In this document: positions 7,507 to 63,559 of the stretch, piece after piece
Layout: each line of letters begins with the position of its first letter
Position numbering within the stretch: position 1 is the stretch's first letter
NCBI GenBank assembly: GCA_016647705.1
Contig: CM028335.1
Location: forward strand, 4,087,501-4,151,500
Origin: Eucommia ulmoides
Taxonomy: Eukaryota > Streptophyta > Magnoliopsida > Garryales > Eucommiaceae
Direction of reading: 5' to 3'
Length of the DNA: 64,000 nucleotides
The notes under the pieces: model-generated
What the model was told of the DNA's origin: nothing
Seen by the model: only the letters and a program-made list of their open reading frames with translations
Database searches by the model: none
Translations under genes and position numbers: made by a program

Positions 7507-8706
7507 ATATATGTAACGACCCGATTTCCCAAGACTGCCACTTGACTTCTCCTATGAAGAATTAATACTAATTTCGATTGACCGAATTTTCATTCTATAA
7601 AATCTGGTAAATTTTATAACAATGACAATAATTTTAGTTGTCGATTTTACAACGGTAACTAGTAAATATAATAATTATGATTAAAAAACAACCGAAAACC
7701 ATTAATTTATTTTGAATTAATCCGTGAATTTTACATACAATGGCGACAGTTATAATTATCGTGGACGATAATTTTACTAACTATATTAAATAATCAGTAA
7801 TCAGATCAGATAAATTTTACACACAATGACAATGATTAGAAGTATCGAATTTTCAAGTTGCCAATAGAAATCCAAATAACACTCTGGTCGTCGTTTCGTT
7901 CTCATCGGCCCTATCCCTTTAGAGAATTAACACTAGAATCGAACGACCAATATTTTATTTCATAAATATGAAACATTAATGATAACTATTAAGATTTTAA
8001 CCATCAATGATAACCATTAAATATATCATTAGAAAATCAATGATATGTGTATTAATTTTATCTCTACCAAGATAATATAACCTATGTGGTAATTAATTAA
8101 TCCAAATTTTACCTCTATCAGCATTCATTAAATTAAATGGTGGTATCATACCTAATACTCAACATGATATGTTGAGTTAGTAATTCATATAATAGTCAAT
8201 TTATTTCGCCACATTATCCTAGGCAAAATATACCCCAATTATTTCAGGTTAAATATTTTAACATTATACTTATCGATTCTGATAAATTTTACAACTACGG
8301 TGACAATAATTATACTCAATTTATCGATTCAAAATTTACAATGGTAAATTTTAACTACATTTATTATAAATAATTAATAAATACACTTATTTCAAGTTAA
8401 ATAGAATTCCAAATAAAATATCTAGCACCACACTATTCTCAAATAAATTCAGTTAAATTCCTCAAATAAATAAAATAATTCATGTTGATTTATCACAATA
8501 ATAAATTATTCCAAATTTTACAGTCGATTTTTACAACAGTAAGTAATAACTACAATTCATACAAATAGAAAGTATAATATAATTTCTCTTACAGCTTCGC
8601 ACTCACCGGCCCTGCAATCAAAACTATGGGATTGTGAGTTAATGTTCAGTAAAATTTCAACTCCATTAATATATGTATCTAACCAAATCACAAATAAACA
8701 CATAAA

Positions 8707-8945
8707 CACTACAACAAAAATGACTTATTAGGACATTTTTTTAGAGACAATTAATAAATAATGTCCTTATAAAATCTTATTGAGACACTTAACCCTAGTG
8801 TCCTTATAATTTTCTTCCCAAAAAATAATATCTTTATAATATTTATTTAATAAGACACATTTTAAAAAATATATAATAAAAATATTATAAACAAATTTAA
8901 TAGGACACATATAAAAGTGTCCTATTAAGGGCACAAATAAAATTT
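8707..8945. repeat. Left terminal and subterminal repeat region of the CACTA element
   Basis: Terminal CACTACAACAAAAA followed by repeated short motifs in both orientations: TTAGGACATT, ATGTCCTTATAA, GTGTCCTTATAA, AATAGGACACAT and GTGTCCTATTAAGG. Their spacing is irregular. The mirror region is at 12,760-13,020. In the En/Spm family such motifs are binding sites for the regulatory transposition protein; that role here is inferred from family knowledge. Confidence 0.85.
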
Positions 8946-9179
8946 TCATTTTTAATCTCTAATTAGAAAAGTATAATTATGAATCAAATTGAAAAAGAAG
9001 TATAAACTATTTGTATAATTATGAACTAAAGTGTTTTCAAACTTCTCTTCTATTTTATTTATTTTCACTTTGGTCCTTGGTAGTTTCAATTAAAAGAGTT
9101 TGACCTAAAATAAAAATATTAATTTTTAGATATACCTAGATGTAAATACCCACTTTTTCATTTGGTCTTATTTTCACCA

Positions 9180-9550
9180 AGTGTGTTCGGCAGAATCCCT
9201 TATTTCATCTTGAGCTAGGCAGTGGGAAAATCATTTGCGAAGAAGCTCGACCAGAAACTCAATCCATTCATCCATTCATCTTCGGAGCTTAATCCATTCA
9301 TCCATTCATCTCTCAATCCATTCATTTCCAGAATCTTCACCTCCCTTTCCAACTTCTCTTCTGACTTCTCAATCGATCGAAGAAAAGGAATGAAGAAATT
9401 TTGAGAATCGATCGGAGCTTAATAGCGGATAATCATTCCAATCGAGCCAATTTCTCAAGCAATCGATTCAATCTTAAGTTGTTCTTCTTCAAGCTCGGCT
9501 TCGGTTGCTGCTTTTTAGGTATGTTTATGTTTTAGGTTTAGGTTTAGGTT
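9180..9550 (+). other. Captured gene leader-like segment inside the CACTA element
   Basis: A segment that is less AT-rich than its surroundings. It contains a short repeated stretch (AATCCATTCATCCATTCATC, occurring about 9,261-9,320), is rich in TC and GAA, and ends at about 9,521 with TTTTTAG followed by GTATGTTTATG, a good splice donor. That structure resembles a plant 5' untranslated exon followed by an intron. A 60-codon open frame at 9,222-9,404 is dominated by the repeated NPFIHSS string and looks like non-coding sequence read by chance. It may be the leader exon of the SH3P-like gene whose coding exons follow at 10,264, but there is no direct evidence. Confidence 0.4.
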
Positions 9551-10263
9551 TTCAAGTATTTTCGCTTTTCAGCTCCGATTATTTCTGAAATTGCTTAGTA
9601 ATTTTCGCCGCCAGATCTGGAATTAGGTGATTGAATAGATCCATTTATTTTTTACTCTACTTTTGATACATAAATTCACTGACTAATATAATTTTCTGGT
9701 ATACCTTAATGATTATATTTAGATTTAGGATTCTAGTTAGCTTTTAATTAAGTTTTGTATGAGTGCATATGTGTGTGCGTACGGCAGTGCAAGTCTATAT
9801 CTGGTTTGATTAGGTTATATAAACTCATTAGAGGAGGTATTTGGAACTAGAGTTGAACAGCAAAACTTACATCTCTAAGCAATCGTTCGGTATGAGGTGG
9901 TCGTCGAGTTGATTTTTGTGATGGATTTTAGAGGAAGTTATCTTAGCTTCCGTGATTAAATTCCTACTAGGCTACCATTATGCTTGATGAATGAACCTAA
10001 CTCATAGCTGAAGAATCTTCTTTGCTATTACCGTGCTCTCTGCTCAGTTTTCGCAGACATTCTTATAATTCAATGCTATTGTTTTTATTATGCTAGCAAC
10101 GGGTGCTTGTCCCTATATTTCTTCAATTTCACAATCTAAAATGATAATCCATGTGTTTTGACTTGGTTTGCTTGTTGTAGAGCTATAACTTTGTAATTTA
10201 TGCGCCTGCATTGAATCCATCATCTGTCACGGAAATGCTTACCTCTGATTTTCAAATTTTTAG

Positions 10264-10798
10264 GTTGTCCTCAAACAGTTTGGAGTTGGTGGATATGGAG
10301 GTTCAGATGGTGTTATTTCTGACAAAGCAGTGGTCCTACAACATCAAAAACTCGAGAAGCTTTACATATCAACACGTGCTGCCAAGGTTTCTCTCTACCT
10401 CTCTTTGTAACCATAATTATTATCAAAAGAAAATTAATATATTCTCCCATCTACTTTCACAGCCTGTGAATGTTTACTTTTTAAATTTTAGCATTTCCAA
10501 GGGGATATTGTTCGAGGTGTGGAAGGTTATATAGTTACAGGGTCTAAAAAAGTTGAAATTGGTGAGTTTTTTAAAGCTACAAATCCATTTGATTTGCATC
10601 ACAGTTAAACAAAGTGTGTTTATACTCTTTATCTCTCTCCAAACAGGTACAAAGTTGTCAGAGGATAGCTGTAAATATGGTGGCGAGAACACATGCACAA
10701 GTGGTAGCACATTATCCAAAGTTGCTCTAAGTTTTGCAAGAGCTCGTGCTCAGATGGAGAAAGAGCATGGAAATATGTTGAAAGCGCTTGGCACCCAG
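10264..10798 (+). pseudogene. Captured fragment of an SH3P (BAR/SH3-domain) protein gene, three exons
   Basis: Three exon pieces with proper splice sites: 10,264-10,386 (after TTTTTAG, before GTTTCT), 10,492-10,561 (after TTTTAG, before GTGAGT) and 10,647-10,798 (after AAACAG, before GTTTTA). In frame they read VLKQFGVGGYGGSDGVISD, then HFQGDIVRGVEGYIVTGSKK, then GTKLSEDSCKYGGENTC and ARARAQMEKEHGNMLKALGT. This matches my memory of the N-terminal BAR domain of plant SH3 domain-containing proteins (the SH3P1/2/3 group), membrane-curving proteins acting in clathrin-coated vesicle traffic and autophagy. Phases join correctly across both introns. The start codon exon, the rest of the BAR domain and the SH3 domain are absent, so it cannot make the host protein. 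It lies within the CACTA element. Confidence 0.85.
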
Positions 10799-11269
10799 GT
10801 TTTAATCTTGACCTTTTCTTCGCTCCTTACATTTTATATGAATGCAAGGTTAAGTGGGGATGCTATATTGAGACGTATTTGCAAAGTGAAACATTCAACT
10901 ATCAATTTCTCATCGAAAATGAAAGATTTAGATAGGTTAGAACAGATTTGGAAGATTTTTAGAATACCATAGCAGTCGTGATATGGTCTTTTAGTATGTA
11001 ATGTATGATCACTTCGTGTTACCTTTTCTCATTATGGCTAAGTATTTTTTCCTCACATTTCCTTTCTCAACTTCCAAGATCTTTATCAAGTGCGCACAAT
11101 TCACAATTAATAAAAACTCCAGATTTTTTTTTTTCCAATAGGGTATTAATCTTTTCCAAGTTTGTTAGGAAGAAAAAACTAGATAATAAAACAGAAGCCC
11201 TAACCAAACTGCTCATAGTATTTGTTATCTTCTCATCATTAAGCCAATTTTTTTTCACTTGAAAAACAG

Positions 11270-11430
11270 GTTCCTGACTATGCAATGAGCTTTGGGTGGT
11301 AGGTGTGCTTGGATATATAAACTATGTATAATCTTGGTGTAATGAGTGAAATGAGTGACAGGGAGATGGTGATTATGAACTTGTGAAGGATGTACTCATT
11401 GATGACTTTCTTCGCAACCGAATCAAAAAG
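11270..11430 (+). pseudogene. Unidentified captured exon-like pieces inside the CACTA element
   Basis: The clearest piece is 11,362-11,430, bounded by GTGACAG and GTATGT. It is 69 bp, exactly 23 codons, reading GDGDYELVKDVLIDDFLRN then RIKK. A second short piece at about 11,270-11,298 (after AAAACAG, before GTAGGT) reads VPDYAMSFG. Both show the splice-site setting and codon structure of real plant exons, but I do not recognise the parent gene. They lie between the SH3P-like and the sugar-transporter fragments, in the same orientation. They may come from one or two further genes, or be later exons of a captured gene rearranged during capture. Confidence 0.5.
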
Positions 11431-11599
11431 GTATGTTGATTCACGTTCAAGGGATCTTCCATCTGTTTTAGTCAACTTTTACTAATGGCCATGCTTATGA
11501 TTTGGAAATCGTAGGTGACCTCCTTTTAGTGATTTTTTGCGTGTTAATGATCTAGAAGAAGAAGAAAAAAAAAATCTTGTCATGGGTTTGTTTGTTTGT

Positions 11600-12075
11600 A
11601 GGAAGCCCTGTTCTTGGAGATTACTGGACCACTCCTATTTCCCTTCACAATCACTAGAATTTCTCTTCCTTCCCGAAATAGAATCATTTCAATCGTTGAT
11701 GTGATTTAAGATCCCCCCGATTGATCTTAAGGTAAGGCTGAGTTTTCCTTTTAGGGTAATTGATTTTTACTTCTTGCCCTCATCGCAACCTCTATGCACA
11801 TACATAAATGCTCTAATTATGAGGTGCTTTGTTTGCCTGCATTCTATAATCTGTCTGTCTGCATGTGAATTTCTTCCTATTGGGCAACCGTCCTTTTGAA
11901 TCAAGTTTCGATCTTTGTATAATTTATTTCTTCCCAAAACACACTAAAAGAAAAGAAGTGATCATTTTTCCTTGTGTTGTTCCAATTTGAAGGAAGATGA
12001 GTGGAGCTGTGCTTGTGGCTGTTGTTGCTACCGTTGGCAACTTGTTGCAAGGATGGGATAACGCTACAATTGCCG
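11600..12075 (+). pseudogene. Captured 5' end of a tonoplast sugar transporter (TST/TMT) gene
   Basis: The coding part is 11,997-12,075, starting with ATG and reading MSGAVLVAVVATVGNLLQGW then DNATIA, ending at the splice donor GGTAAATC. This is the highly conserved N-terminal start of plant tonoplast monosaccharide/sugar transporters, which are proton-coupled carriers in the vacuole membrane; the stretch would be the first transmembrane segment. Upstream, a leader-like exon (about 11,600-11,731) ends at AAG before GTAAGGCTGAG, and an intron of about 260 bp runs to TTTGAAG at about 11,990. The captured block therefore includes leader, leader intron, first coding exon and the start of the next intron. 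The remaining roughly 700 residues are absent. Confidence 0.85.
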
Positions 12076-12339
12076 GTAAATCTTGTATTCTTCTTTCAGA
12101 TTTAAGTTTATTTACATCCTTAATTCATATGACTTTTTCTTCCTAATGTTTTTTTCTTAATTTATGAATTATGTCAACCAAAGCAATTTGAATTTGACTC
12201 CTGAGATACATGACTTTTTTCTCCAAGTATAGAAACAGAAATCTCCAAGTTTTACTTTAAATATAAAGGATGTACTCAAGAATTTTTGGGAATGGAAATC
12301 TGTTTTTGTTCTCTTCTCCATTTTTCAAAACAAAACTTA

Positions 12340-12760
12340 CGGGAAACAACTGAAATAGTTTTTTTTTTTTTTTTTTTTTGTGATGTAGCTGTAGCAGTGC
12401 AGTGCATGTAGCTGAAAAAAGGGGTACGAGGACCAACGTTTAAGCGCAGTATTTGGGGTCAAAGTGATGCGCAATTTTTTGTTCTTGTTCTCAGACAACA
12501 GAAAACAAAAATTTTGTTTGAAAAAAGATTTTGTTTCTGTTTCTGTTTTCAAACAAAAATATGGACTACATAGTAAACATATTTCTATTCCCAGATTTTG
12601 TTTCACAATTTTTAGTAATATTTGATTTTCAATTGGATAAATTTGGATTATTGGTTTTAGCCAAATTAAATATATTTATTAATTTTTTTAAAATTTTTAC
12701 TTTTTGGGACATAAAATTGTTGTATAAATTATTTATTAGTGATTTAAGGGATGCATTGTT
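12340..12760. other. Low-complexity filler between captured fragments and right CACTA end
   Basis: Contains a run of about 20 T at 12,358-12,379, a GC-richer patch at 12,380-12,475, then AT-rich sequence. The T run next to a non-AT-rich patch could be the reversed tail of a small retroposed sequence, but I found no flanking duplication. No gene seen. Confidence 0.35.
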
Positions 12761-13296
12761 TTGTCCTATCAAAGATTTATTGTGACACTTATGTAGGTCT
12801 CGAAAGCTTTTCTAATACAAATGCCCAAAAGATTTATTAGGACACATAATAGTGTTCTAATAAATATAAACTAATGCGACAAAAAATAAGTGTCTTTATA
12901 AGTTATTGGGACAATAGTTTATAGGGCACATTTTTTAATTGTCTCAATACATAATGTGTCCCAAAAGAATATATATTAGGACACATTTAGGTGTCCTCAA
13001 AAGTATTTTTTGTTGTAGTGAAACGTGTGTATCATATAAATTTCATATAACACGTAGTCGCAAATATTTCATAAAAATAACAATTATAACAATAATAATA
13101 TAAACCACATAACATGGATTAAATACATATATAAGAGAGGAATAAATTTTTTACCTGAGATGAGATCCAACCAAAATTTGTGATAATCGGTAAAAGAGAA
13201 CTATTTTTTTTTTTTTATTCTCTTCTTATTTTTTTTTTCCCTCTTCTTCCGTCCCCACCTCCCTGCATTATTTCAATTGTTCTTTTCTCCACCTTC

Positions 13297-13299
<3 letters not shown>

Positions 13300-13333
<34 letters not shown>

Positions 13334-13392
13334 TGTTGACAATTGGAGCCAATTTGCCGACTTCCTTCTCCTTTTTTTTTTTTTTTTTTTTT
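13300..13392. repeat. (AT)n microsatellite and poly(T) run in the solo LTR
   Basis: About 16 AT units at 13,300-13,332 and a run of more than 20 T at about 13,371-13,392. Both lie inside the right half of the solo LTR. The related LTRs at 49.3-49.5 kb and 53.7-54.0 kb also carry simple repeats at the equivalent place, with different motifs and lengths. Confidence 0.85.
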
Positions 13393-13872
13393 CTTTTTCT
13401 TTAATTTTTGAGCACATGTTGGATCATGGATGGCTGCCCAAGCTTCCGAATATTACACTTAGGACCCCACATTTATTTAATAATTCTTGTTTAACCCAAT
13501 AATTATACTTATCTCCTCCAAAATTATTAAATATATATATTTATACCATACTTTTTTTGTAATATACAAAATAACCCAAAAATATTACAATAATATTTTC
13601 AAAAATATAAATTTAACATTTAACTCCAAAGATTATTAAAAATATAAATTAACAATTAATATCCAAAAATTATATAGTATCTATTTATAACACGAATTTA
13701 CAAAACCGTCTCCAAAAATATTAAACTTATATAAAGTCATATTCTTTCAAAAATATTAATTTTCGAGATATTACAATATAAGTTTTTAAAGTAGAGGGGA
13801 CAAAATGAAATAAGATCAAATTAGAAGGGAATAAGCGATAACCCTTTCTTATATAATCCCTACCAAATACAA

Positions 13873-15134
<1,262 letters not shown>

Positions 15135-15249
15135 AAGCTTTATTTGGGAGTGATTTTTTTGCTTGTGTTTTTGTGCATGAAATTCTTAGAAAATTGTTAG
15201 GCTTTCTGTTCTATGTATTAAAAGGTTTAATGATGTCTTCTTGTGTGAT

Positions 15250-21787: not shown

Positions 21788-22073
21788 TTAGATGTTGTGC
21801 ACACATTTTAAATCTTATTGTGTGCGAGGGGTTAAAAGAAATGGATGAGTCCATCCTCAAAATAAGAAATGTAGTAAGGCATTTGAGGTCATCCCCATCT
21901 AGATTGACAAGTTTCAAGATTTGTGCAAAAAAAAAAAGTATTGATTGCAAGAGTCAAGTCTATCTTGATGTGTCAACTAGATGAAATGCTACTTATTTCA
22001 TGTTGGAGAGGGCAATTAAATTTGAAGTAGCGTTTGACCGATTGGTAGAAGAGTGTACACAAATTAATAGAGT

Positions 22074-22104
<31 letters not shown>

Positions 22105-22759
22105 AAAGAAGATGATGTAGATGATGCTGAGAATGTGAGAGGAAAAAAGGCTAGAAAGGTTTTAGGTCTACCAACTAGTGGGGATTGGGAAAAAACTAAG
22201 TTGTTTGTAAAATTTCTTAAATTATTTTACAAATCGGAAATGAATAAGTTTTTGCTTGATTCTTATGAGAAGGAAAATAATAATTTTGATATATTGGGGT
22301 GGTGGAAGATAAACTCGTCGAATTATCCGATTCTCTCTCAAGTAGTGAGGGATGTGTTAGCCATTCCGGTATCTACCGTCGCTTTAGAATCTGCTTTAAG
22401 CACCGGTGGACGCATTCTTGATCTATTCCGAAGCTCATTGTCAACGAAAATGGTGGAAGCCTTAATTTGCTCTCAAAATTGATTGTGACGGTCAACTCCT
22501 ATCAATCTTCAAGAAACAATGGAACAAGTTAAACAACTTGATCTTATTGACGTAGAGGAAGGTAATAAAAAATAGAAAATGTTTGTTTACAATTCATAGT
22601 TTTTTATCCTTGTTAATGCATTAATTTCTCTCCTTTTTTAGTTGTAGATCTTGATCATCCTTTTTTTTCCAGAATCAAAGATTATTAACAAGTGACAGAT
22701 TATCCGGAATTAGAGATTATTTTTTGGGATTGTTGTTATTTTTTTGGAACTGTCATGTA

Positions 22760-28689: not shown

Positions 28690-30035
28690 TATATGTCGTT
28701 AATATGCATTGTTGTGGTTGGACAATATTATTTAATTTTTTCAATTTGAAATGGTTGTTTGTGAAATATTGATATTATTTTATCAAAGTGATTTAACCAA
28801 TATAATTTGTAAGTTTTCGAGTTCCTATTTGTTGATAAAAAAAATTTAGATTAATTTGTACATTCACCTACCAAAACGGGATTATTGTGCAGAATAATTT
28901 AATTATTGGATAATATAGTTTAATTTTCTCAATTTCGATTGGTTACTTGTGAATTATTGATGTTATTTTACCAAAATGATTTAACAAATATAGTTTGCAA
29001 GTTTTCGAGTTCTTATTTTGTAGATGAATTTTTTTTAGATTAATTTGTATATTCACCTACCCAAATGGGGTTATTGTGCATATTAATTTAATTGTTGGGT
29101 AATATACCTAAAATTTCTCAATTTGAAATGTTTACTTATGAATTGTTGAAGTTATTTTACCAAAGTGATTTAACCAACATAATTTACAAATTTTCGAGTT
29201 CCTATTTTGTTGATGGAAAAAATTTAGATTAATTTATACATTCACCTGCCCAAAGGAGGTTAGTGTGCAGATTAATTTAATTGTTAAATAATATAGTTTA
29301 ATTTTCTCAATTTGGAATGGTTGCTTGTGAATTGTTGAGATTATTTTACCAAAGTGATTTAACCAATATAATTTGCAAGTTTTCGAGTTCTTATTTTGTT
29401 GATAGAAAAATTTTAGATTAATTTGTACATTCACCTGCCCAAAGAGTGTTATTGTGAAAATTAATTAAATTGTTAGATAATATAGCTTAATTTTTCTATT
29501 TTAGAACGTTTACTTGTGAATTATTGAGATTATTTTACCAAAATAATTTAACCAATATAGTTTGCAAGTTTTCAAGTTATTACTTTATTGATAGAAAATT
29601 TTGAGATTAATTTGTGCATTCACTTACCCAAAGGGGGTTATTGTACAGAGTAATCTAATTGTTAGGTAATATAACTTAATTTTTCCAATTTGAAACGTTT
29701 GCTTGTGAATTGTTGAGGTTATTTTACCAAAATGATTTAACCAACATAATTTGCAAGTTTTCGAGTTCCTATTTTGTTGATGATTTTTTTTAGATTAATT
29801 TGTGTATTCACCTGCCCAAACGGAGTTATTGTACAAATTAATTTAATTATTGGGTAATATAGTTTAATTTTTTCAATTTGAAACGTTTGTTTGTGAATTG
29901 TTGAGGTTATTTTACCAAAATGATTTAACCAACATAGTTTGTAAATTTTCGAGTTCCTATTTTGTTGATGAAATTTTTTTAGATTATTCTGTATATTTAC
30001 CTACTCAAAGGGGGTTATTGTGCAAACTAATTTAA
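28690..30035 (+). repeat. Seven-unit tandem array, period about 187 bp
   Basis: The block GATTTAACCAAYATARTTTG recurs near 28,793, 28,980, 29,167, 29,352, 29,546, 29,731 and 29,920, i.e. every 185-194 bp. Each unit also has TCGAGTTCCTATTTTGTTGA, TTAGATTAATTTG, CATTCACCTGCCCAAA with GGGGTTATTGTGCA, and a TTAATTTAATTGTT block. Units differ by scattered bases and small length changes. A looser extension (TACCCAAAGGG-like blocks) continues to about 30,250 and again near 30,540. The array has satellite-like unit length but lies inside an LTR element. Confidence 0.9.
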
Positions 30036-30889
30036 TTGCATAAGGATATTATGTTAGATAAATAATTTGATAAATTTGTTTACCTAAAGGGAATGAATTT
30101 TGAAAGATTATTTATTTCATTATATTTTGAAAGAAATATATGAATTTGAAGGTCAATCTACCCGAAAGGGATAAAATTTTGAATCCGTAAATTTTTCTTA
30201 TTTTATTGATCCTCAATTAAAGAATAATTGTTTATTATAGACTCTACCCAAAGGAAAGTTTATGATAACACAATTGATTCTTATATTTTATTACCTATGC
30301 TTAATTAATTATTTTGTCTATTACCCATAATTGATTTATTTATAATTTTTTTGTGAAAACAATTTTTTTTTTTGAACAACAATAACACCATAATAAAATT
30401 CTAAATTGATCATTTGATTTCATGGGAGTCTTTGTAATTTTCTTTATTTTGATGATTGTGTCGTGTAAGCATTGATCACTATTATTATAAAATATTCTTT
30501 ATTTTGTTGATTTTCATACTTAGAGAATAATTATTTATTATAAACTCTGCTCAAAGGGAAGTTTATGATAACGCAATTGAATCTTATATTGTGTCGCTTA
30601 TACTTATTTAGCATTTTGATTCTTTGGTTTAGTGGGAGCTTTTGTATTTTTATTTATTTTGATGATTACGTTGTAACCACTATTGTTATGCATTTTGAAA
30701 AAATAAAATCTATTTGATTATCATCATTATTGTACATTATATTGTTATATATCATATTATTTAAATTGATTATATAATATGGTATCTTAAGATATTGTGC
30801 CTTAAGAATTACAGTTGTATACTTTTGCCTATCACAAATTACTATTTTGAGATCTCGTGATGTATTATCAGTAACGGATGACTTGTTAA

Positions 30890-42019: not shown

Positions 42020-43513
<1,494 letters not shown>

Positions 43514-43654
43514 AAGCAAATTTCAGTTTTTGCCTATCAATTTAAAAAAAAAAAATAGTATGAAATCCTTGACTAATAAGACTTCTATGTATTGGAATAA
43601 TGTTTAGTTTTTGTGATGTAATAATCCGAAATAATAATGTCTTTTTGGTTTCTG

Positions 43655-46818: not shown

Positions 46819-48199
46819 AATACCTACCTTCCCATGGCTCAAAATGTCTTTCATTCATGCAATTATAATAGTAAGTACCTTTTGGTGTAATGAATGATGT
46901 CCCTTCCTCATCCTACTGATCCATATAAATTTGATTGTAGCCTGCGTAAGTATCCAGCATCGTCAAACGTTGGTGCCCAGCTGCAGCATCAACCATATGA
47001 TCTATCCTTGACATTGGATAACAATCTTTCGGGCATGCTTGATTAAGATCAATGAAGTCCACATATATCCTCTACTTTTCATTTTTCTTTTTTAACAAGA
47101 ACTGGATTGGCCAACCATCTTGGATACATTACCTCCTTTATGTGGCCAATGGAAAGCAGTCTTCACTTCGGCGTCAATCACTTGTTCTTTCTTAAGATTG
47201 AAGGTCCTCCTTTTCTGTCGGACTGGAGGGTATGACCTAGAAATATCCAGGTGATGAATGGCTACATCTGGACTTGTTCCTTTCATATCTTCAGGAGCCC
47301 ATACAAAGATGTCCAGGTTCTTTTGGAGCAGCTCACTGATCTCTCTGGCCTCAATCTAGATTAATGATCCTCCAATCATAAGCTTTTGAATCCATTCATT
47401 AAAGGCAGTCTGTTTTACTTTCTTGGCGGGCTAGATTACACTTGCGTGTTCCTTGAAATCGTCAATTACTCCCGCTGAACTTGTTGGTGTAACTACTCCC
47501 TAGGCCTTCTTTGATTACTATAAGGGCGTACCCTTACCCTTCATTGCTATGGAAAAATATTCCCTCGACGCTACATGGTCACCTCTTATCACTGCCACAG
47601 AACCATTCCTTGTATACTTGACACATTGGTGGTATGTTGATGCAACTGCCCTTATTGCATGCAACCAAAGATGCCCAAGGATTGCATTGTAGGGTGACAC
47701 CGAGTCTACTACCATGAATTCCGTGGCTTTCGTGTATCTCCATTCGTCTTTGTTAGAGGCAACATACAAAGTTATCTTTCCACATGGCGTTGTAAGGTCA
47801 CCATTGAATCCTACCATGATGGTTTGCGTGGAACTCATATACAAGCTTGGTATTCCCATCTGCTTTAGAGTACTAACAAAGACAATATTAGCAGAACTAC
47901 CATTATCAATCAGGATCCGTCGTACCTGAAATCTAGAAATCCACAAAGTAATAATTAGGGCATCTTCATGTGGGTGAACAATCCTTTTGCAGTCCTCCTT
48001 CGAAAAATTAATAATTGGTCCTAGATTCGTTGTGATTACCATTGTCTCCCCGAAACATCGCTCCAAAGTTGCTTCTCAGACCTTCATTTTTCGTTCTCGA
48101 TTAGACGTTGCAATACTTGGCCTGGCAGAATTTATCATGAAAATTACTTCACGATTCTCTTTGGGATGCTATTCTTTCTCGTGATGTTCCTCACGCTGG

Positions 48200-49755
48200 C
48201 TTTTCCTCTTAGAGAATTATCACCAAAACCGATCGACCAAAATTTAATTCTATTAAATCTGGAAAATTTATAATGCGATGGTGTCCAGTAATTAATAATG
48301 CGTCTTATGAAAATAGTTTAATTTACAATGTGACGACGAAACTTATAATTATTGAATTCACCGATTTTACAAACAGTGACAATAATTTTAGTTGTCAATT
48401 TTACAATGGTAACTAATGAATATAATAATTACAATTTAAATCCAACTGAATAACCAATAATTTATTTCAAATTAATTCGATAATTTTTACGATACTACGA
48501 CAATATTTATAACTATCGAATTCACCGATTACACCGATAAATAATAAATATAATTATTATTTATATTCAATATAAATTCCAGATATTCCAGATATTCCAA
48601 TTATATATATATATTCAGAATACACAATATTCTCATATATTAATGGTAGTCTCAAATTTACAAATATAATTCTGACGATATATAATCTACTATTAGTAAT
48701 AACCATTAGTTTAGATTATATATGTATACTAATATGTATATTTGATGGTGATATACTTTTAAAGATCAAAATATAATCTAAGTATAATATCTTTAATATC
48801 TATAAAATTTTCTGATTTTCAAATATTAGAGATTCAAATATGATTTTTATTATCAAATTCATCGATTCAGTTTTACAACACTAAATAGTAAATACAATTT
48901 TTTTTATAAATAGAAATTCAACTAAAATTTGTATCGTCATTTCACTCCCACCGGGTCTGCAATCAAAATTGTGGGGGTTGTATGCCAACGCTCAGTAGAA
49001 CTTCAACCCCTCTAATACGTGCATTTCATTATCACGACAAATAAAACACCTTGACATGATTTTCACATAATTTTCACATAATTATAATTATTTCATATAA
49101 ACTAACAAGGATAAAATCACCAACAATAATAACATAAATCACTCAATAGACAGATTAAATACAAATATTAGAAGATTTAGAAATTCTATCTGAAATCCAA
49201 AGCTAAAATCCAAAACAAACTACTCAAAATCTTCTAATATATATGTGTGTGTATGTGTTCAAAATCCGTAGCTCCAGTTTTTCTCTTCTTTTTTTTCTTT
49301 TTTTCTTTTTTCCTTCTGTTCTCTCGACTAAAACCATGTGTCTAAACAAAACATAACATATATCTTATATATATAGAAAAGTTATCACCTTATGCTCCTT
49401 CTGATTATTATTATTATTACACGTGTACATGTCCTTAACATTCAAGGATTATGATTTTTTTTTTTTTTTTATAATCATTATTCGCGGCCACAATTCCTTT
49501 CTTAGTAATTAAGGATTAAAAATTACATTTAATCCCTATAAAATAAAATAAAATATTAATTATACCCCGAAACTCTTGAAAGTATATTTTAAATAACACA
49601 TTAATCCCAAAACTTCTAAAATCAATTTAAAATAAACATTAACTTAAAAAAATCATCACATATTATTTATACCATAAATTCGCAAAACAATCCTAAAAAT
49701 ATTAAACTTTTATATAAAGTAATGTTTTTAAAAATATAAATTTCTGGGTATTACA
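48200..49755 (-). repeat. 3' LTR of the non-autonomous element
   Basis: Ends at plus-strand GGGTATTACA (49,746-49,755), directly followed by the complement of the purine tract. It shares with the other LTR long blocks such as TTTACAATGTGACGACGAAA and AATAATAAATATAATTATTA. A (TTA)n run of five to six units near 49,407 corresponds to a much longer one at 53.95 kb in the other LTR. Confidence 0.85.
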
Positions 49756-52655: not shown

Positions 52656-53943
52656 TGTAATGACTCAATTTCCTAGGGCCGTCACATAGTTTCTCCTCTT
52701 GGAGAATTATCACCAAAACCGTCTGACCAAAATTTCATTCTGTAAAATATGGTAAATTTATAATGTGATGGTGTCCAGTAATTAATAATTCGTCTTATGA
52801 AAATATTTTAATTTACAATGTGACGACGAAACTTATATTTGTTGAATTCACCAATTTTACAAACAGCGGCAATAATTTTAGTTGTCGATTTTACAACGGT
52901 AATTAATAAATATAATAATTACAATTTAAATCTAACCGAGTAACCAATAATTTATTCTAAATTAATCCATTAAATTTAAGATGTTACGACGATAGTTATA
53001 ACTAGCGAATTCACCGATTATACCGATAAATAATAAATATAATTATTATTTATATTTAGTATAAATTCTGGATATTCTAATTATATATATATATATTCAG
53101 AATACATAGTAGTCTCAGACATTAATAGTAGTGTCAAATTTACAAATATAATGTTGACGATATATAATCTACTATTATTAATAACCATTAGTTCATATTA
53201 TATATATGTATACTAAAATGTATATTTAATGGTGATATACTATTAAAGATCAAAATATAATCTGAGTACAATATCTATAAAATTTTCTGATATTCAAATA
53301 TTAGAAATTCAAATATGATTTTTATTATCGAATTCATCGATTCAGTTTTACAACACTAAATAGTAAATATAATTTTTTTACAAATAGAAATTCAACTAAA
53401 ATTTGTATCGCCGTTTCGCTCCCACCAGGCTTGCAATCAAAACTATGGGGTTATGAGTCAATGCTCAGTAGAACTTCAACCCCTCTAATACGTGCATTTC
53501 ATTATCATGACAAATAAACACCTTGACATGATTTTTACATAATTTTTATATAATCATAATTATTTCATGCAAACTAACAACGATAAATTCACCAACAATA
53601 ATAACGTAAATCACTCAATAGACATATTAAATACAAATATTATAGGAGTTAAAAATTCTACCTAAAATCCAAAGTCGAAATCCAAAACAAACTGCTCAAA
53701 ATCTTCTAATATGTGTGTGTGTGTGTGTGTGTGCTCGCGCGTGTGTGTTCAAAATCCGCAGCTCCAGTTTTTCCCTTTTTTTTTTTTTTCACTTTCTTCT
53801 TCTTCTTCTTCTTCTTCTTCTTTTACTTTTTTTTTTCCTTTTTTTTTTCTTGCCTAAAATCATGTGTCGGAACATAACTTAACATATATCTTATATATAT
53901 ATATATATAAGTGATCACCTTCTTCTTCTTCTTCTTCTTCTTC

Positions 53944-53986
<43 letters not shown>

Positions 53987-54320
53987 ACGTGTACATGTCC
54001 TTAACATCCAAGGATTATGTTTTTTTTTTTTTTTTTTTATCATCATTATTCACGACCACAATTCCTTGCTTAGTAATTAAGGATTAAAAATTACATTTAA
54101 TCCCCCATAAAATAAAATATAAATTATACTCCAAAATTCTTTAAAATATATTTTAAATAACACATTAGTCCCAAAACTTCTAAAATCTATTTAAAATAAA
54201 TATTTAACTCAAAAAAATCATCAAATATTATTTGTACCACAAATTCGCAAAACAATCCAAAAAATATTAAACTTTTATATAAAGTAATGTTTTCAAAAAT
54301 ATAAATTTTCGGGTATTACA
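52656..54320 (-). repeat. 5' LTR of the non-autonomous element
   Basis: 1,665 bp, bounded by TGTAATGACTC and GGGTATTACA. The primer-binding-site-like string is immediately to its left. It contains simple repeats that the partner LTR has only in short form: (TG)n at about 53,712-53,732, (TTC)n near 53,803-53,821 and a compound (TTC)n(TTA)n at about 53,922-53,986. Confidence 0.9.
53922..53986. repeat. Compound (TTC)n(TTA)n microsatellite
   Basis: About eight TTC units followed by thirteen or more TTA units inside the right LTR. The same position in the partner LTR (about 49,400) has no TTC run and only five to six TTA units, so the expansion happened after the element inserted or the short form is a contraction. 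Confidence 0.92.
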
Positions 54321-56395
54321 CCTTGGGCATTCTTGTAGATAATCATGTAGTTGACCCATGTCAGCTAAACGCTTAATCTCCTTTTTGAGCTCCTAGTAAC
54401 AGTCATCCGTGTTGTAACCATGATCCTTCTAGAAATCACAGTATTTAAATATGTTCTTCCTGTTGGATTTAGTAGTCTACTTGGGTGGCCACTGAATTAC
54501 TTCCAAAGCACGTATCTCATGTAGAATTCTTGAAATCGGCATTTGCAGACCAAGAAGATTTGGCTCTTAATGAGCTTTTGATCTGAGATTCGAACTCTTT
54601 GCTTGATCTTTACGCCTATATGTTGTACTGACTTTCGCCTTGCCGCCATCCTTTTCATTCTTCCTGGGATTGATCTTTGAAAGATCATCTACCTTCTCTG
54701 GCGAGCTTAACGTCCTCCAATTTCATGTAGGGTTTGGCTTTTTCTATCAACTCCGACATGCTCTTGGGACTCTTCTTGGTTAAGGAGTCTTAAAAACGAC
54801 TAGGACGTAACCCTGAGGTGAACGCATTAATGATGAAATTGGTGTCACAACCCACAATGCACGTTAACTCCTCATTAAATCAGCTCATATATTGGCTCAG
54901 AGTTTATCCCTTTGCTTAACATAAGGCAAGCAAAAAATTAGGACCCTTCATTAGTTTTTGACAGGTTATGAAACGGTTGATAAACATTTTTCCAAACTCC
55001 TGGAACGACGTGATAGAGTTTGGAGGAAGCGTATTCAACCATTCGAGGGCTAAGCCCTTCAAAGTGGTAGCAAAAGCTCTATAGAGTGTGGAGTCACTTG
55101 AACCATAAAGATTCATTGCATACTTGAATTGGCGGATATAATCCACTGGATCTGCTCTCCCATCATACTTCTCGAACTTTGTGGGATCAAATTTTTCAGA
55201 GAGCAGGACAAAAAGGATATGTGGAGAAAAAGGCATCTCAGTGCCTTTCAACAGTGTGTCCAGTTCATCCAACGGTTGACATTTTTCCACTTTACTTTTG
55301 ATCTGCCGATGTGAGACAATAGTCTCAATTCAGCTGTAACCTCTTCTCTCTGGCTTATGACATCTATCTTCTTGAGTAGGTCTCTTCTCATGAGACTGAG
55401 GATTAGCAAAACCAGGAGACCCTACTTCTTCTCGAATTTCACAATTAGTTGCTGGGGATTGCAACTTGCTCTCAGCAATTATCCTTGCCATGCACTTGAT
55501 CATTTCAACTATCTCAGCCATTTTTGCAATAAGAGCATCAATTTTGGCGTCATTGTTTAGCATGGTTGGTGGAAGATCAGTCTGAACCTCCTCATGCTGC
55601 TCCATTAGAATTTATGCACCAGATAGCGGTGGTAAGTCGTTGCCTCGACTCGTTCCTGCCGCTCTTATTCGTAACTGCCTCATAGTCATGATGGAAAGCT
55701 TCTATGTTAGCGTTTCCCACAGAGGCATCAAATAATGTTGCCAAAAAATTTCCAACATGTGTAATAGCTCTGTATGTGCTAGAAATCTCTTCACCTTCCA
55801 ATTGCTACCTGCAAAACCGTGGGTTCTAATGAGGGACACCGGTGTGGTGTCGGCCAAAGACCCTTCAACGTGAAAATAAGTTGATCTGGTATATAGAGAA
55901 AATTGTACACAGATTGAATCGTAAGAATTACCAATCCTCTCTACCCTTTTTATAGGTTCAATTATATGTAACCATAACCTTGGAGAAGTCGACAGCTCTC
56001 TGATACGCTCCTAACGGCTTGGGAGATCACCAGTATCCCCATGATCTTAGGAGATATATTTGTAACGGTCTCCATTAATCATGGGCCGTTATAGTCTATC
56101 TGATTTGTCTTCTCAAGTGTAGGGGAGTCGTTTAGGTTGGGCTGATTTGTTAGCTCTTAGGCCTTTGACACCATAGGCTTAAATATACCCAGATACAGGC
56201 CTCCTTATAAGGCCATTGATCTTGCTCAAAAGATCGCTGAGGTGACCACCCAAATAGGTATGTCATGCTTTGGTCCAGATAATCCATTAAGTCTGTCTAT
56301 TACGGATCAGAATTCATACCCAGTCTGACCCATTTAAAGTTAAATGCCTATGTCAGTTATGAGCGGGAGTTTTTCCATATCAATGTCCATTATGT

Positions 56396-58074: not shown

Positions 58075-58638
58075 GGGGTGGGGTGAGGATGGGTTTGCCA
58101 TCACCGGAGTAAGGATGGGGGTGAGGAGACGAACAGGTTACGCTCAGGGGGTTCGCCGTTTCGTCGTCCCCATTGCCGAAAAGTGATGGCCTTGGTCCGT
58201 TGATGGTTGCAGGAGCAGAAGAGGGAATGGTGAAATGAAAACAAAAAATACACTTTTTACCCTTACAGTTTGGATAATTTCTTAAATTCATCCATAGAAT
58301 TAGGTTTAATAAAATGACAGATTTACCCTTAATTGCAAAGTGTAATGATACAATTACCCTTAACCTCTGCTTAAAAGTTTGACAAAGTTAAGGGTAATTT
58401 TGTCATGTTATTAAACCTAATTCAATGGGTCAATTTAAGAAATTATCCAAACTTTAAGGGTAAAAAGGTATTTTTTGTTTTCATTTCACCATCTCCTCTT
58501 CTCCTCCTGCAACCATCAACGGATCAAGGCCATCACTTTTTGGCAATGGCGACGACGAAATGGCAAACCCCCCTAGCGTGACCTGTTCATCTCCTCACCC
58601 CCATCCCTGCTCCTGTGGATGGCAAACGTATCCCCACA
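58075..58638. repeat. Fold-back (inverted repeat) element of about 560 bp
   Basis: The left arm (about 58,075-58,340) and right arm (about 58,375-58,638) are inverted copies with roughly 85-90 percent identity by eye. Matched blocks include GATGGGGGTGAGGAGACGAA with TTCATCTCCTCACCCCCATC, and GTTGATGGTTGCAGGAG with CTCCTGCAACCATCAAC. The centre, near 58,358, is a short AT-rich spacer. The outer thirds are GC-rich and the inner parts AT-rich. No transposase. It could be a MITE-like or FB-type element; a transcript would form a long hairpin. Confidence 0.82.
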
Positions 58639-59728: not shown

Positions 59729-62700
59729 ATGGAAAAAGAGAATCAAAATGCAAGTGCAAAGGGAAAAGAAAAGGTGAATGAAACTTCTAATGTGGTATGT
59801 CGTTTGTAACAATTTTTTTATTTTTTTTTGTGCCAACATGGAATTGTATATTTTGTTTTAATAAAAAATAAATTCTTATAAATTTGTGAGATATGAATTA
59901 AAGATCAATGACAATAAGAAATAATTATTTGCTTTATTATTTTACGTATGTGCATGTCCTTCAAAGTTTAGTCTGTGATATATTGAAATGATTAAATTTA
60001 ATTTCTTTAGCCATTCTATTCGTTATGAAAGTGTAACTTATTACGTCACGATATCTATTGATTTTTTTGAATTAAATTTTTAAAAAATGAATATCAAATA
60101 TTTTTTGGTTGATGTTAAAAGATATCTGAATTTTTAAAAATCAAGTCAATAACTTTTTAAAAGTTTTGTGACAATCTTTTAATTCAATATTAAATCTTTT
60201 TTAATTCATAAATTTAAATTAATATCGTCAAATATCATATGAGAGTTTTCCTTTTTTATTTTAATTAAAATAGGTAACCATTGAAAACAACTTTTCCAAA
60301 GCCGCAAAAGCCCAACGAGCATGTAAGGAAAAAGAAAAATATAATCGACAATTTATTGGAGAGTCATCTACGCCTGCATCAAAACGTAGAATTATTGAAC
60401 ATTCCGATGTTAGTGCAATGACTTCTTTATGTTCACATACACGAGTACATGTGGATATAAGTATTAAACAAAATACTACGTCTGGAATGAATAGTAGAAT
60501 TACCACCACCATTAATGATTTGTCTCAATCTTAGAAAACAAATTTTGTCAGCAATAAGCGTTGATGACGTTACAGCAACCGAAGAGATAGATTTACCACA
60601 AGAGAATTTCCGGTAATAGATTTAAAGTCATATTATCTAAAAATCTAAAAATGTGTAATTCACATGCATTATTTTAAAAAAATAAAAATAAATTAATTTT
60701 AGTTCCTTTATATATGTAGGTCAACTACTACAGAAGAATATTTGCATGATGAACAAGATACTGTTGCGTTCGAAAATTCTTCTCTAATTAACCCTTCTGT
60801 TCATATAAATTCAAGTCGCCGTTATCTCTGACTAATGGATGTTATTTGTTCATATTGTTCTGCGTTACAATGGATGGATGAAATATTGACAAAGTCATTG
60901 CTTAGGAGTCCTTTGTTTGGTACATGTTGTTTGCAAGGAAAAGTTAAATTACCTTTACTTTTTATGCCCTTTCCGACGCGTAAATCACTATATGATGGTA
61001 ATGATGAAAAGTCTAAATCTTTACGCCGCCACACTCGGGAATATAATGCAACAAATGTTTTAACGAGTGTTGGTGCTAAGTTGGATGAGGGGGTTCTCAA
61101 TGGTAGAGGTCCGAACACGTTTGTAATACATGGACAATTGCAGCATAGGATTAGAGCACTAATTCCAGACACAGGAAGAGATGCAGTTTACTCTCAGTTG
61201 TACATTAATGTTGAAGTTTGTTCTGGAATAATATGCGTGAAATATGTTCACAAGTACATTTATAAAGGAGATGATCAGATAACAATAATGGTGGGAGAAG
61301 CGGACAAAATCAAGCAATATCTCGATGCAAGATATATTGGACCAATTGAAGCAGCATGGAGATTATTAGGTTTCATTTTACATGAAAAACTTCCAAATAT
61401 TGTTTGATTGACACTTCATTTACCTGGAATGCACCATGTGGTATTTGATCCTGATGAAGAAATTGATTCGATTATTTCATGAGCTCAAAGGCAAGTAACA
61501 ACACTTACTGCTTTTTTCAAATATTATGGATCACATGAAGATGCGCATGCTTATACATATGAAGAATTTCCTTAGTATTTTGTTTGGGATAAATCTCATA
61601 CGATATTGAAAGTAAGACAACGTGGGTTTGCAATTGAAAGAATGTACTTTGCATATCTAAATTCTGGAGAATTGTTTTATTTGCAATTACTATTGACTGT
61701 TGTTAAAGGACTACAATCATTTGAGTGCTTACGTACATTTAATAATGTTCAACATCTGACATTCAAAGCTGCATGTGTTATAAGTGGCACTTCATTTATC
61801 TGGAATGCACCATGTGGTGTTGGATTCATGTAAACTGTAGGATCAATTTTCACCATATGTCTGTGATAACCTATCTCACAAAATTCGCACAAAATTTAGA
61901 TTCTCTAATCGGACCGCAATTCAAATTAAAGATTATGGTTTGTATCTTCTAAATAAACTTTTACAAGAATTAGGAAAGAGTTTAGTTGATTTCCTATCCA
62001 TGCCCAAACCTGTTCATAATTGGAGAATGATTGTTGGTAACAGACTAATATGGAAACATCGACAATTAGAAAGCATAGCACAGGATTTGAATGTCCAAGT
62101 TAATATTGATCACCTAAATAATTGTCAACGATCTGCTTGTGATTCAATTATGTCTTCATTACTTGGTAATAAGGGAGAGACATTCTTTTTAAATGGTGGC
62201 GCTGGTACTGGAAAGACTTTTTTGTACAACATGATTGCAACAAAATGTCGTAACCTTGGTTATGTTGTCATTACTGTTGTTTTGTTCGGTATTGCATCGC
62301 TACTTCTGCAAGGAGGCAGAACTGTACATTCTACGTTTCGCACCCCTTTAAATATCCTTGAAAACTAGATTTGCGGATTTAGTAAGCAATAATTGCAGGT
62401 GGAATTGTTTAGAGAAACTAAATTAATAATTTGGAATGAGGTCTTAATGTAGCATAGGTATTGCATTGAATCGGTAGATCGCACACTTCAAGATATAAGA
62501 GATAACACAAATCCATTTGGGGGTATCACTGTTGTACTTGGTGGAGATTTCAAACAAATATTACCCATTATACCCAAAGGCGTTCGTAAACAAATTGTGG
62601 GTGTTTCGCTTAATCGGTCTAACCTTTAGAACTTCATTAAGGTGTTAACTCTATATCTCAACATGCGCTTGAGTAGCACAAATACTGAAAATGATGAGTT

Positions 62701-63559
62701 TACCAAGTTTTTATGAGAGATACTGCTTATTTATTATATGTAGATAAGATTTTAACAAGCTTGAACAGTTTTTTTTTTTTTTTGGTTAAAGATTGGAAGC
62801 AATCCACGTGAGATAATAAAATTCTCATCAAACATCCACAAGTGTTAAACATCGTCTGAACTCATCTCAACAGTTTACCCACAATTGAATGTTGTTGAAA
62901 CTGTTACCCCGATATATTTGACTGAGCAATTTATACTTTCGGCCCGAAATGACGATGTTAGTGAGATTAATTCAACAACATTGGATAGTTTTCCTAGAGA
63001 AATTATCAAATACTTGGTTGCAGAGAAAATATCAGAAGATGATGAGGTTGATCTTCGAATCACTAATCGTTATCCTAATGAATATCTAAATTCGTTAGAT
63101 CCTCCAGGACTTTCCCCGTTCAAATTAAATTTGAAAATAGGTTGTTCAATAATGTTACTGAGAAATATTGAACCTAACGATGGACTATGTAATGGGACTC
63201 AATTGATGGTTGTTAGATGTGCTTCCCGAATAATTGAGGTTAGGATTTTAACAGAGGATAAATTCTAAAATTTGGTATTTATTCCGAGAATATCTTTAAC
63301 TCATTTGTCTTCGGATTTTCCTTTTCAAATGACAAGATGACAGTTTCATGTTCGTTTGGATTATGCAATGACAATAAACAAATCACGAGGTCAATCAGTA
63401 AAATTTGTTGGGATAGATTTGACTACACCAGTTTTTAGTCACGGACAACTTTATGTAGCCTTATATAGATGTACATCTTTCAACCGATTAAGCATACTTC
63501 TACCTAAAGATGGGCCTCAATCCATAATAAATATTGTTTATCGAGAAGTTCTAATATAA
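59729..63559 (+). pseudogene. Helitron Rep/helicase pseudogene lacking the HUH nuclease region
   Basis: An N-terminal exon at 59,729-59,794 (MEKENQNASAKGKEKVNE) ends at GTATGT; the next begins at 60,274 after AAAATAG (VTIENNFSKAAKAQRACKEK). Then come CSYCSALQWMDE and FGTCCLQGKVKLPLL (60,835-60,960), the usual Helitron N-terminal signature. At about 61,200 the frame passes from GRDAVYSQLY straight to INVEVCSGIICVKYVHKYIY. In intact plant Helitron proteins several hundred residues, including the HUH Rep motifs, lie between these blocks. The PIF1-like helicase follows: Walker [10 protein letters not shown] (62,200), a Walker B region reading IIWNEV where IIWDEA is usual, [13 protein letters not shown], and the C-terminal [17 protein letters not shown]. 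Stops interrupt it near 60,534, 60,830, 61,405, 61,480, 61,574, 62,366, 62,451, 62,628 and 63,266. It cannot be functional. Confidence 0.88.
62764..62876 (-). mobile_element. Small poly(A)-type insertion (SINE-like) in the Helitron gene
   Basis: AACAGTTT occurs at 62,764-62,771 and again at 62,869-62,876. Removing the sequence between restores the helicase frame from SLNS into LPTIE. The insert is about 105 bp and starts with a run of about 14 T after the left duplication, so on the minus strand it ends in a poly(A) tail. The body (about 62,785-62,868) shows no clear tRNA-type promoter boxes. It is a short SINE or a heavily 5'-truncated LINE placed by target-primed reverse transcription. Confidence 0.75.

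Follow-up and report, generated by a model that had tools for sequence, protein, structure and literature searches.

A CACTA transposon in Eucommia ulmoides that very likely carries genomic pieces of three unrelated genes

Why would a few kilobases of a plant genome contain exons from several unrelated genes, side by side, between what look like the two ends of a transposon? We analyzed this question for a 64,000-nt stretch of the Eucommia ulmoides genome (CM028335.1, positions 4,087,501-4,151,500), which we will call the window; all coordinates are positions in the window. An initial annotation, made from the sequence alone, had placed a CACTA element with fragments of host genes at 8707-13020. 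We conclude that this is very likely a Pack-CACTA, a non-autonomous transposon of the CACTA (En/Spm) type, and that it carries genomic pieces of three unrelated genes. Two of those genes had been proposed before, and the third turns out to encode an NADP-malate dehydrogenase.

Positions 8707-13020 (4314 bp) form one complete CACTA element. Its 14-bp inverted ends, CACTACAACAAAAA, begin with CACTA and match at 14 of 14 positions (8707-8720 on the plus strand and 13007-13020 on the minus strand), and these are the only two exact copies in the 64 kb. The element is flanked by AAA on either side (8704-8706 and 13021-13023), as expected for a 3-bp target site duplication, and its outermost 29 bp are 86% complementary between the two ends. 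If up to 2 mismatches to CACTACAACAAAAA are allowed, then there are 4 sites in the window, which is not significant (the mean for shuffled sequences was 1.81, and 11 of 100 shuffles had at least 4 sites). The weight is on the exact, oppositely oriented pair and the flanking AAA, not on the count of loose matches.

CACTA elements are also expected to have direct and inverted repeats just inside their ends. We found 4 exact copies of the octamer TAGGACAC in the window, all of them within the ends of the element (the expected mean was 1.05, and 2 of 100 shuffles reached 4). If we consider AGGACAC-type sites with up to 1 mismatch and in both orientations, then the element has 19 of them, with 7 in the first ~230 bp, 4 in the middle ~3.8 kb, and 8 in the last 260 bp (these are raw counts, without a shuffle control). 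In other words, 15 of the 19 sites are concentrated in these two terminal stretches. We therefore describe 8721-8957, which is A+T-rich (20-23% G+C), and 12707-13006 as the left and right subterminal regions, each with AGGACAC/GTGTCC-type repeats. The initial annotation's arrays of TAGGACAC are real in that all of the exact copies are at the ends, but "arrays" is a loose description, as most of the copies are variants. We found no transposase within the element: none of its 3 open reading frames (ORFs) of at least 100 amino acids matches a transposase in Pfam, and the longest ORF is at most 145 amino acids. No part of the element matched the rest of the window (E ≤ 0.01), and there is one copy of an element with these ends within the 64 kb.

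Do the two ends belong to a single insertion? We joined the flanks in silico, omitting one AAA, so that the junction was at position 407 of the query, and compared the joined sequence to the window. In the joined sequence, positions 230-516 match 53346-53640 (71% identity) and positions 230-520 match 48871-49172 (68% identity), with both alignments crossing the junction. Because these two related repeats lack the element, and because the flanks align to them across the insertion point, the two ends are from one insertion and not from two unrelated elements. At the 53.3-kb site, the alignment is free of gaps beside the join, and the bases there are TGA, which differ from AAA; the gap-free join fits a 3-bp duplication without proving it. 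Together with the exact 14-bp ends, the two related empty sites bear out the element as originally proposed. Since both empty sites lie within the window, the insertion can be interpreted from these 64 kb alone, and the element is a fully bounded example of a CACTA transposon that has captured pieces of several genes.

The two repeats with empty sites (52691-54320 and 48201-49755) are 84% alike, and both end in GGGTATTACA. Based on its similarity to these repeats, the sequence that surrounds the element is probably a solo long terminal repeat (LTR) at 7512-13775, which would be ~1947 bp without the insert. It runs from TGTAACGACC, which begins at 7512, to ATATTACA, which ends at 13775, and it is flanked by an ATATA on each side. 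(LTRs of plants start with TG and finish with CA, with a 5-bp duplication.) The right end of the solo LTR is also where the match to 54320 ends, while the basis for the left end is just the motif and the ATATA duplication; we looked for TGTAACGACC at the repeats at 48201-49755 and 52691-54320 and did not find it. So, the CACTA element is probably nested inside a solo LTR. Near the two repeats there is also a retrotransposon gag-like ORF (54916-55329, minus strand), whose Pfam score is just below the cut-off, and another ORF (47518-48075, minus strand) with no match in Pfam.

Between the ends of the element, the first gene piece comprises three exons on the plus strand, at 10264-10386, 10492-10561, and 10647-10798, which we identified from their spliced translation and its homologues. 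All of the exon borders are GT-AG, and the spliced exons form 345 nt, or 115 codons, with no stop. This piece has 537 protein matches with E ≤ 0.001; among the best 120 of these, the named proteins are from plants and most are annotated as "SH3 domain-containing protein 2" (SH3P2). The best-scoring matches among those 120 are from Diospyros (85%) and Davidia (86%), followed by Actinidia (83%) and Bertholletia (84%), so the earlier assignment to an SH3P protein was correct. With Pfam, we found just an FCH hit below the threshold, and no match to BAR; a search of PDB gave one weak and unrelated match. The piece is cut at both ends. Three homologues have a MDAIRKQATKLREQVARQQQ-like stretch before the aligned region and VAEPLRAM after it, and neither is present in the spliced piece: the N-terminal residues of the parent, including the start, are missing before the first exon, and VAEPLRAM does not continue from the third.

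The SH3P2 piece also seems to have accumulated unusual replacements. When compared to the consensus of 120 homologues (the best 120 of 537, picked by likeness to the query), it differs at 20 of 115 residues, while the homologues differ at 9.1 residues on average. At the 70 columns that are conserved in at least 95% of the homologues, it has 5 changes, while the homologues average 0.8 and have at most 4. Its open frame is no sign of selection, because such a frame often survives random change: in simulations with 12-20 changes in 345 nt, the frame stayed open in 66-49% of trials (58% for about 15 changes).

The second piece is a single exon at 11362-11430 (plus strand), with 23 codons, phase 0 at both ends, AG before it, and GT after it. 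It encodes GDGDYELVKDVLIDDFLRNRIKK, which aligns from end to end with an NADP-malate dehydrogenase in PDB (1civ_A, E = 3.6e-5). The second match in PDB is also a malate dehydrogenase (7mdh_A, E = 6.5e-4), and the remaining three are other proteins with E of about 1 or more. The initial annotation had put a gene that it could not name at 11,270-11,430. There is a gene piece here, but it can be named, as 11362-11430 is from an NADP-malate dehydrogenase gene. A match to the start of an exon at 11270 (the residues VPD of NADP-malate dehydrogenase) may reflect a second, rearranged exon from the same gene.

The third piece, at 11997-12075 (plus strand), is the first coding exon, from ATG to GCC G and then GT, of a gene for a tonoplast monosaccharide transporter 2 or monosaccharide-sensing protein 2 (MSSP2/TMT2-type). 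We rechecked these coordinates. The exon encodes MSGAVLVAVVATVGNLLQGWDNATIA. A search with this sequence as one half of the query gave 280 matches with E ≤ 10. Among the best 120 of the 280, 119 cover the transporter half, or 51% of the query, with identities of 85-96%; the other one is a 258-aa protein for which 94% of the query is aligned, at 58% identity. The names among these 120 are monosaccharide-sensing protein 2, tonoplast monosaccharide transporter 2, or else general transporter or hypothetical proteins, which agrees with the prediction of a first exon from a tonoplast sugar transporter. PDB has only weak matches to this piece, to xylose symporters (E of about 1), and Pfam has no match to either this piece or the malate dehydrogenase piece. 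Upstream of it, 11602-11731 (plus strand, with AG before and GT after) might be a 5' untranslated exon of the transporter gene. Scans of the window with Rfam (at the gathering threshold) and for tRNAs were empty.

Could a transcript of the element encode a protein? We modeled ten transcripts using only true AG acceptors, which allow the transporter exon to start at either 11993 or 11997 (the latter from the AG at 11995-11996). The longest frames that begin with ATG are 60, 64, 73, and 52 amino acids if this exon starts at 11993; 64, 87, 73, and 64 amino acids if it starts at 11997; 44 amino acids without the transporter exon; and 99 amino acids, the maximum across the ten models, for the unspliced sequence (partly from intron). 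Because the SH3P2 piece lacks its start codon and no ATG frame exceeds 99 amino acids, a working chimeric protein is unlikely. Furthermore, none of the three proteins looks as if it could be made in working form from these pieces. We also searched for proteins that resemble the composite. The joined pieces match 110 short proteins, and 8 of these alignments end at residue 122 or beyond. In 7 of the 8, the alignment begins in the SH3P2 part and continues beyond residue 121, where these 7 proteins show no resemblance to the malate dehydrogenase piece; the remaining alignment is limited to the last residues of the malate dehydrogenase piece and the transporter part.

Overall, coding-gene matches between the ends of the element (three genes) with no match to a transposase are what is expected of a Pack-CACTA. 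The retention of GT-AG introns between the three SH3P2 exons implies capture at the DNA level, as the initial annotation had argued from the pieces being on one strand with intact splice sites. Nevertheless, some observations weigh against our interpretation. AAA on both sides is weak evidence on its own in A+T-rich DNA; the identity of the malate dehydrogenase piece depends on just 23 residues; and our search for second copies and parent loci covered the 64-kb window, where we saw none. The excess of replacements in SH3P2 is a rough test because the homologues were selected for their similarity to the query. Also, if the transporter exon starts at 11997, then the SH3P2, malate dehydrogenase, and transporter pieces are fused with each in its own frame, and random junctions would join all of the pieces in frame less often than not. 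The SH3P2 frame is open and its splice sites are clean, which could suggest that the pieces are remnants of true host genes at this locus and that CACTA ends from different elements merely flank them. The initial annotation had itself raised continuous host genes as a potential objection. This is extremely improbable, as pieces of three unrelated genes lie within 1.9 kb, the SH3P2 piece is truncated on both sides, and the surrounding repeat has two related copies that lack the entire 4.3 kb, which mostly refutes it. The number of donor genes might be larger than three. At 9181-9518 (plus strand), there is a possible non-coding first exon or 5' leader, which we recognized from the sequence only. 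It ends in a donor-like AG/GTATGT, and the G+C content climbs from 0.20-0.23 in the first 400 bp of the element to 0.35-0.40 at 9107-9506, so a fourth donor may have supplied this leader exon and its intron. On the other hand, this stretch may just as well be unrelated filler, or an untranslated leader that belonged to the parent gene of the SH3P2 piece, and it has no copy elsewhere in the window. A fourth donor is a reasonable possibility, but we lean slightly against it.

The initial annotation also proposed that a single transcript could be spliced into a chimera or could make small RNAs against the parent genes. In this scenario, a spliced transcript of the element would be functional, either through a short fusion peptide or through small RNAs that reduce the expression of the parent genes in trans. 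The uniform strand and the intact splice borders are consistent with this, and with the transporter exon starting at 11997, the in-frame fusion would be 64 amino acids up to the next donor or 87 amino acids if the following intron is read. There are related examples as well: the available text on soybean Tgm-Express1 describes gene pieces that are spliced into 12 chimeric RNAs (PMC1947982), and in maize, elements with captured sequence are siRNA reservoirs, although the elements in the relevant part of that review are Helitrons, Pack-MULEs, and Sireviruses (PMC13317346). However, translation of the fusion would need to begin at an ATG within SH3P2, behind earlier ATGs that are out of frame, and we found no ATG frame that leads from 9181-9518 into the SH3P2 frame. 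The alternative acceptor, for a start at 11993, breaks the transporter frame after SH3P2 and malate dehydrogenase. The unusual replacements in SH3P2, and the lack of any resemblance to the malate dehydrogenase piece in the 7 proteins that align past SH3P2 (among 110 matched short proteins), also argue against a functional product. So, of the chimera that was proposed, the in-frame join from 11997 stands, while a working protein is unlikely, and we consider functional expression as a whole to be unlikely too. A function for the element's cargo is weakly supported. The idea that the parents all act in endomembrane traffic and vacuolar sugar storage needs revision as well, since malate dehydrogenase falls outside of that theme. 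It is more improbable still that the pieces for membrane shaping, malate dehydrogenase, and vacuolar sugar transport are co-transcribed and spliced at the in-frame acceptor into a fusion peptide of 64-87 amino acids, or that small RNAs act on all three parents. If this were true, then it would be a further case of a CACTA element capturing malate dehydrogenase after Tgm-Express1, and a hint of donor bias.

How might a Pack-CACTA element of this kind have arisen? The ends would serve as binding sites for a CACTA transposase that is encoded elsewhere in the genome and that would mobilize the element in trans. The element would then move by a cut-and-paste mechanism that duplicates 3 bp of the target; the ends, the duplication, and the related empty sites are what we observed. 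The likely route of capture would be that neighboring elements mobilized as one and took the DNA between them, or that filler DNA was captured during repair. We looked within 8900-12900 for remnants of internal ends, as the fusion of neighboring elements might leave them. There are 17 sites that resemble the ends with up to 4 mismatches, which is more than the average of 200 mononucleotide shuffles (8.7) but no more than their maximum (17), and there is no internal CACTACAA or TTGTAGTG in that region. After landing in the probable solo LTR, the element would drift. If it were transcribed, the intact splice sites would allow a spliced chimeric RNA, with a short fusion peptide at most.

The window contains other genes and repeats. 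Two copies of a glutathione S-transferase gene, which are presumably tau-like, lie at 13870-15138 and 42232-43517, and they are 84% and 90% alike in their two exons. The copy to the right of the solo LTR (13870-15138) is broken in its first exon by an in-frame stop and a frame change, and the exons of the copy at 42-43.5 kb are open. A piece of the C-terminal dimerization region of a hAT transposase is at 21985-22482, and a tandem array with a unit of ~188-189 bp is at 28717-30038 (self-matches of 83-85%). A large palindromic repeat of ~555 bp (58083-58637) matches its own reverse complement at 85%. Finally, pieces of a PIF1-like helicase and a Pif1 2B domain are in separate ORFs at 61841-63268, which is perhaps a remnant of a Helitron.

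Elements of this kind have been described before, in soybean, Arabidopsis, and maize, and ours is a clear new example. It leaves the known working of such elements unchanged and contributes one more case to the record of captured genes. Captured pieces of this kind can also be mis-annotated as genes by automatic pipelines. We searched the literature on CACTA elements with capture of genes for NADP-malate dehydrogenase, SH3 domain-containing proteins, or tonoplast proteins, and among the matches listed, we found no published description of this element.

In Arabidopsis and maize, the portions of Gisby and Catoni 2022 (PMC8903248) on Pack-CACTAs describe elements whose ends are CACTACAA and which have target duplications and coding DNA that was captured, in maize often from several loci. 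Our element shares the CACTACAA ends (as stated for Arabidopsis), the target duplications, and an assignment to the class by gene matches without a transposase match. The cargo genes in that account are different from ours, and our element has one copy within the window. The capture model in which neighboring elements move together is from the same account and from the relevant part of PMC13317346. The CACTA elements of Chenopodium, as covered in the available text of PMC8978399, also have terminal inverted repeats, subterminal repeats, a 3-bp duplication, and captured gene pieces, but there the captured pieces are beside the element's transposase coding sequence, unlike in our element. The nearest precedent, judging from the accessible text of Zabala and Vodkin 2007 (PMC1947982), is Tgm-Express1 from soybean. 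It contains pieces of five genes (an unknown protein, CDC2, FPK, MDH, and cysteine synthase) and yields 12 distinct chimeric transcripts from a host promoter. Tgm-Express1 is a CACTA element of comparable length (5.7 kb), and like the element from E. ulmoides, it has fragments of both introns and exons from several genes that are unrelated to each other. In contrast, Tgm-Express1 has five donors and is spliced within a transcribed gene, where it occupies an intron, while our element has three donors and lies in a probable solo LTR. In both elements, one of the captured genes encodes malate dehydrogenase.

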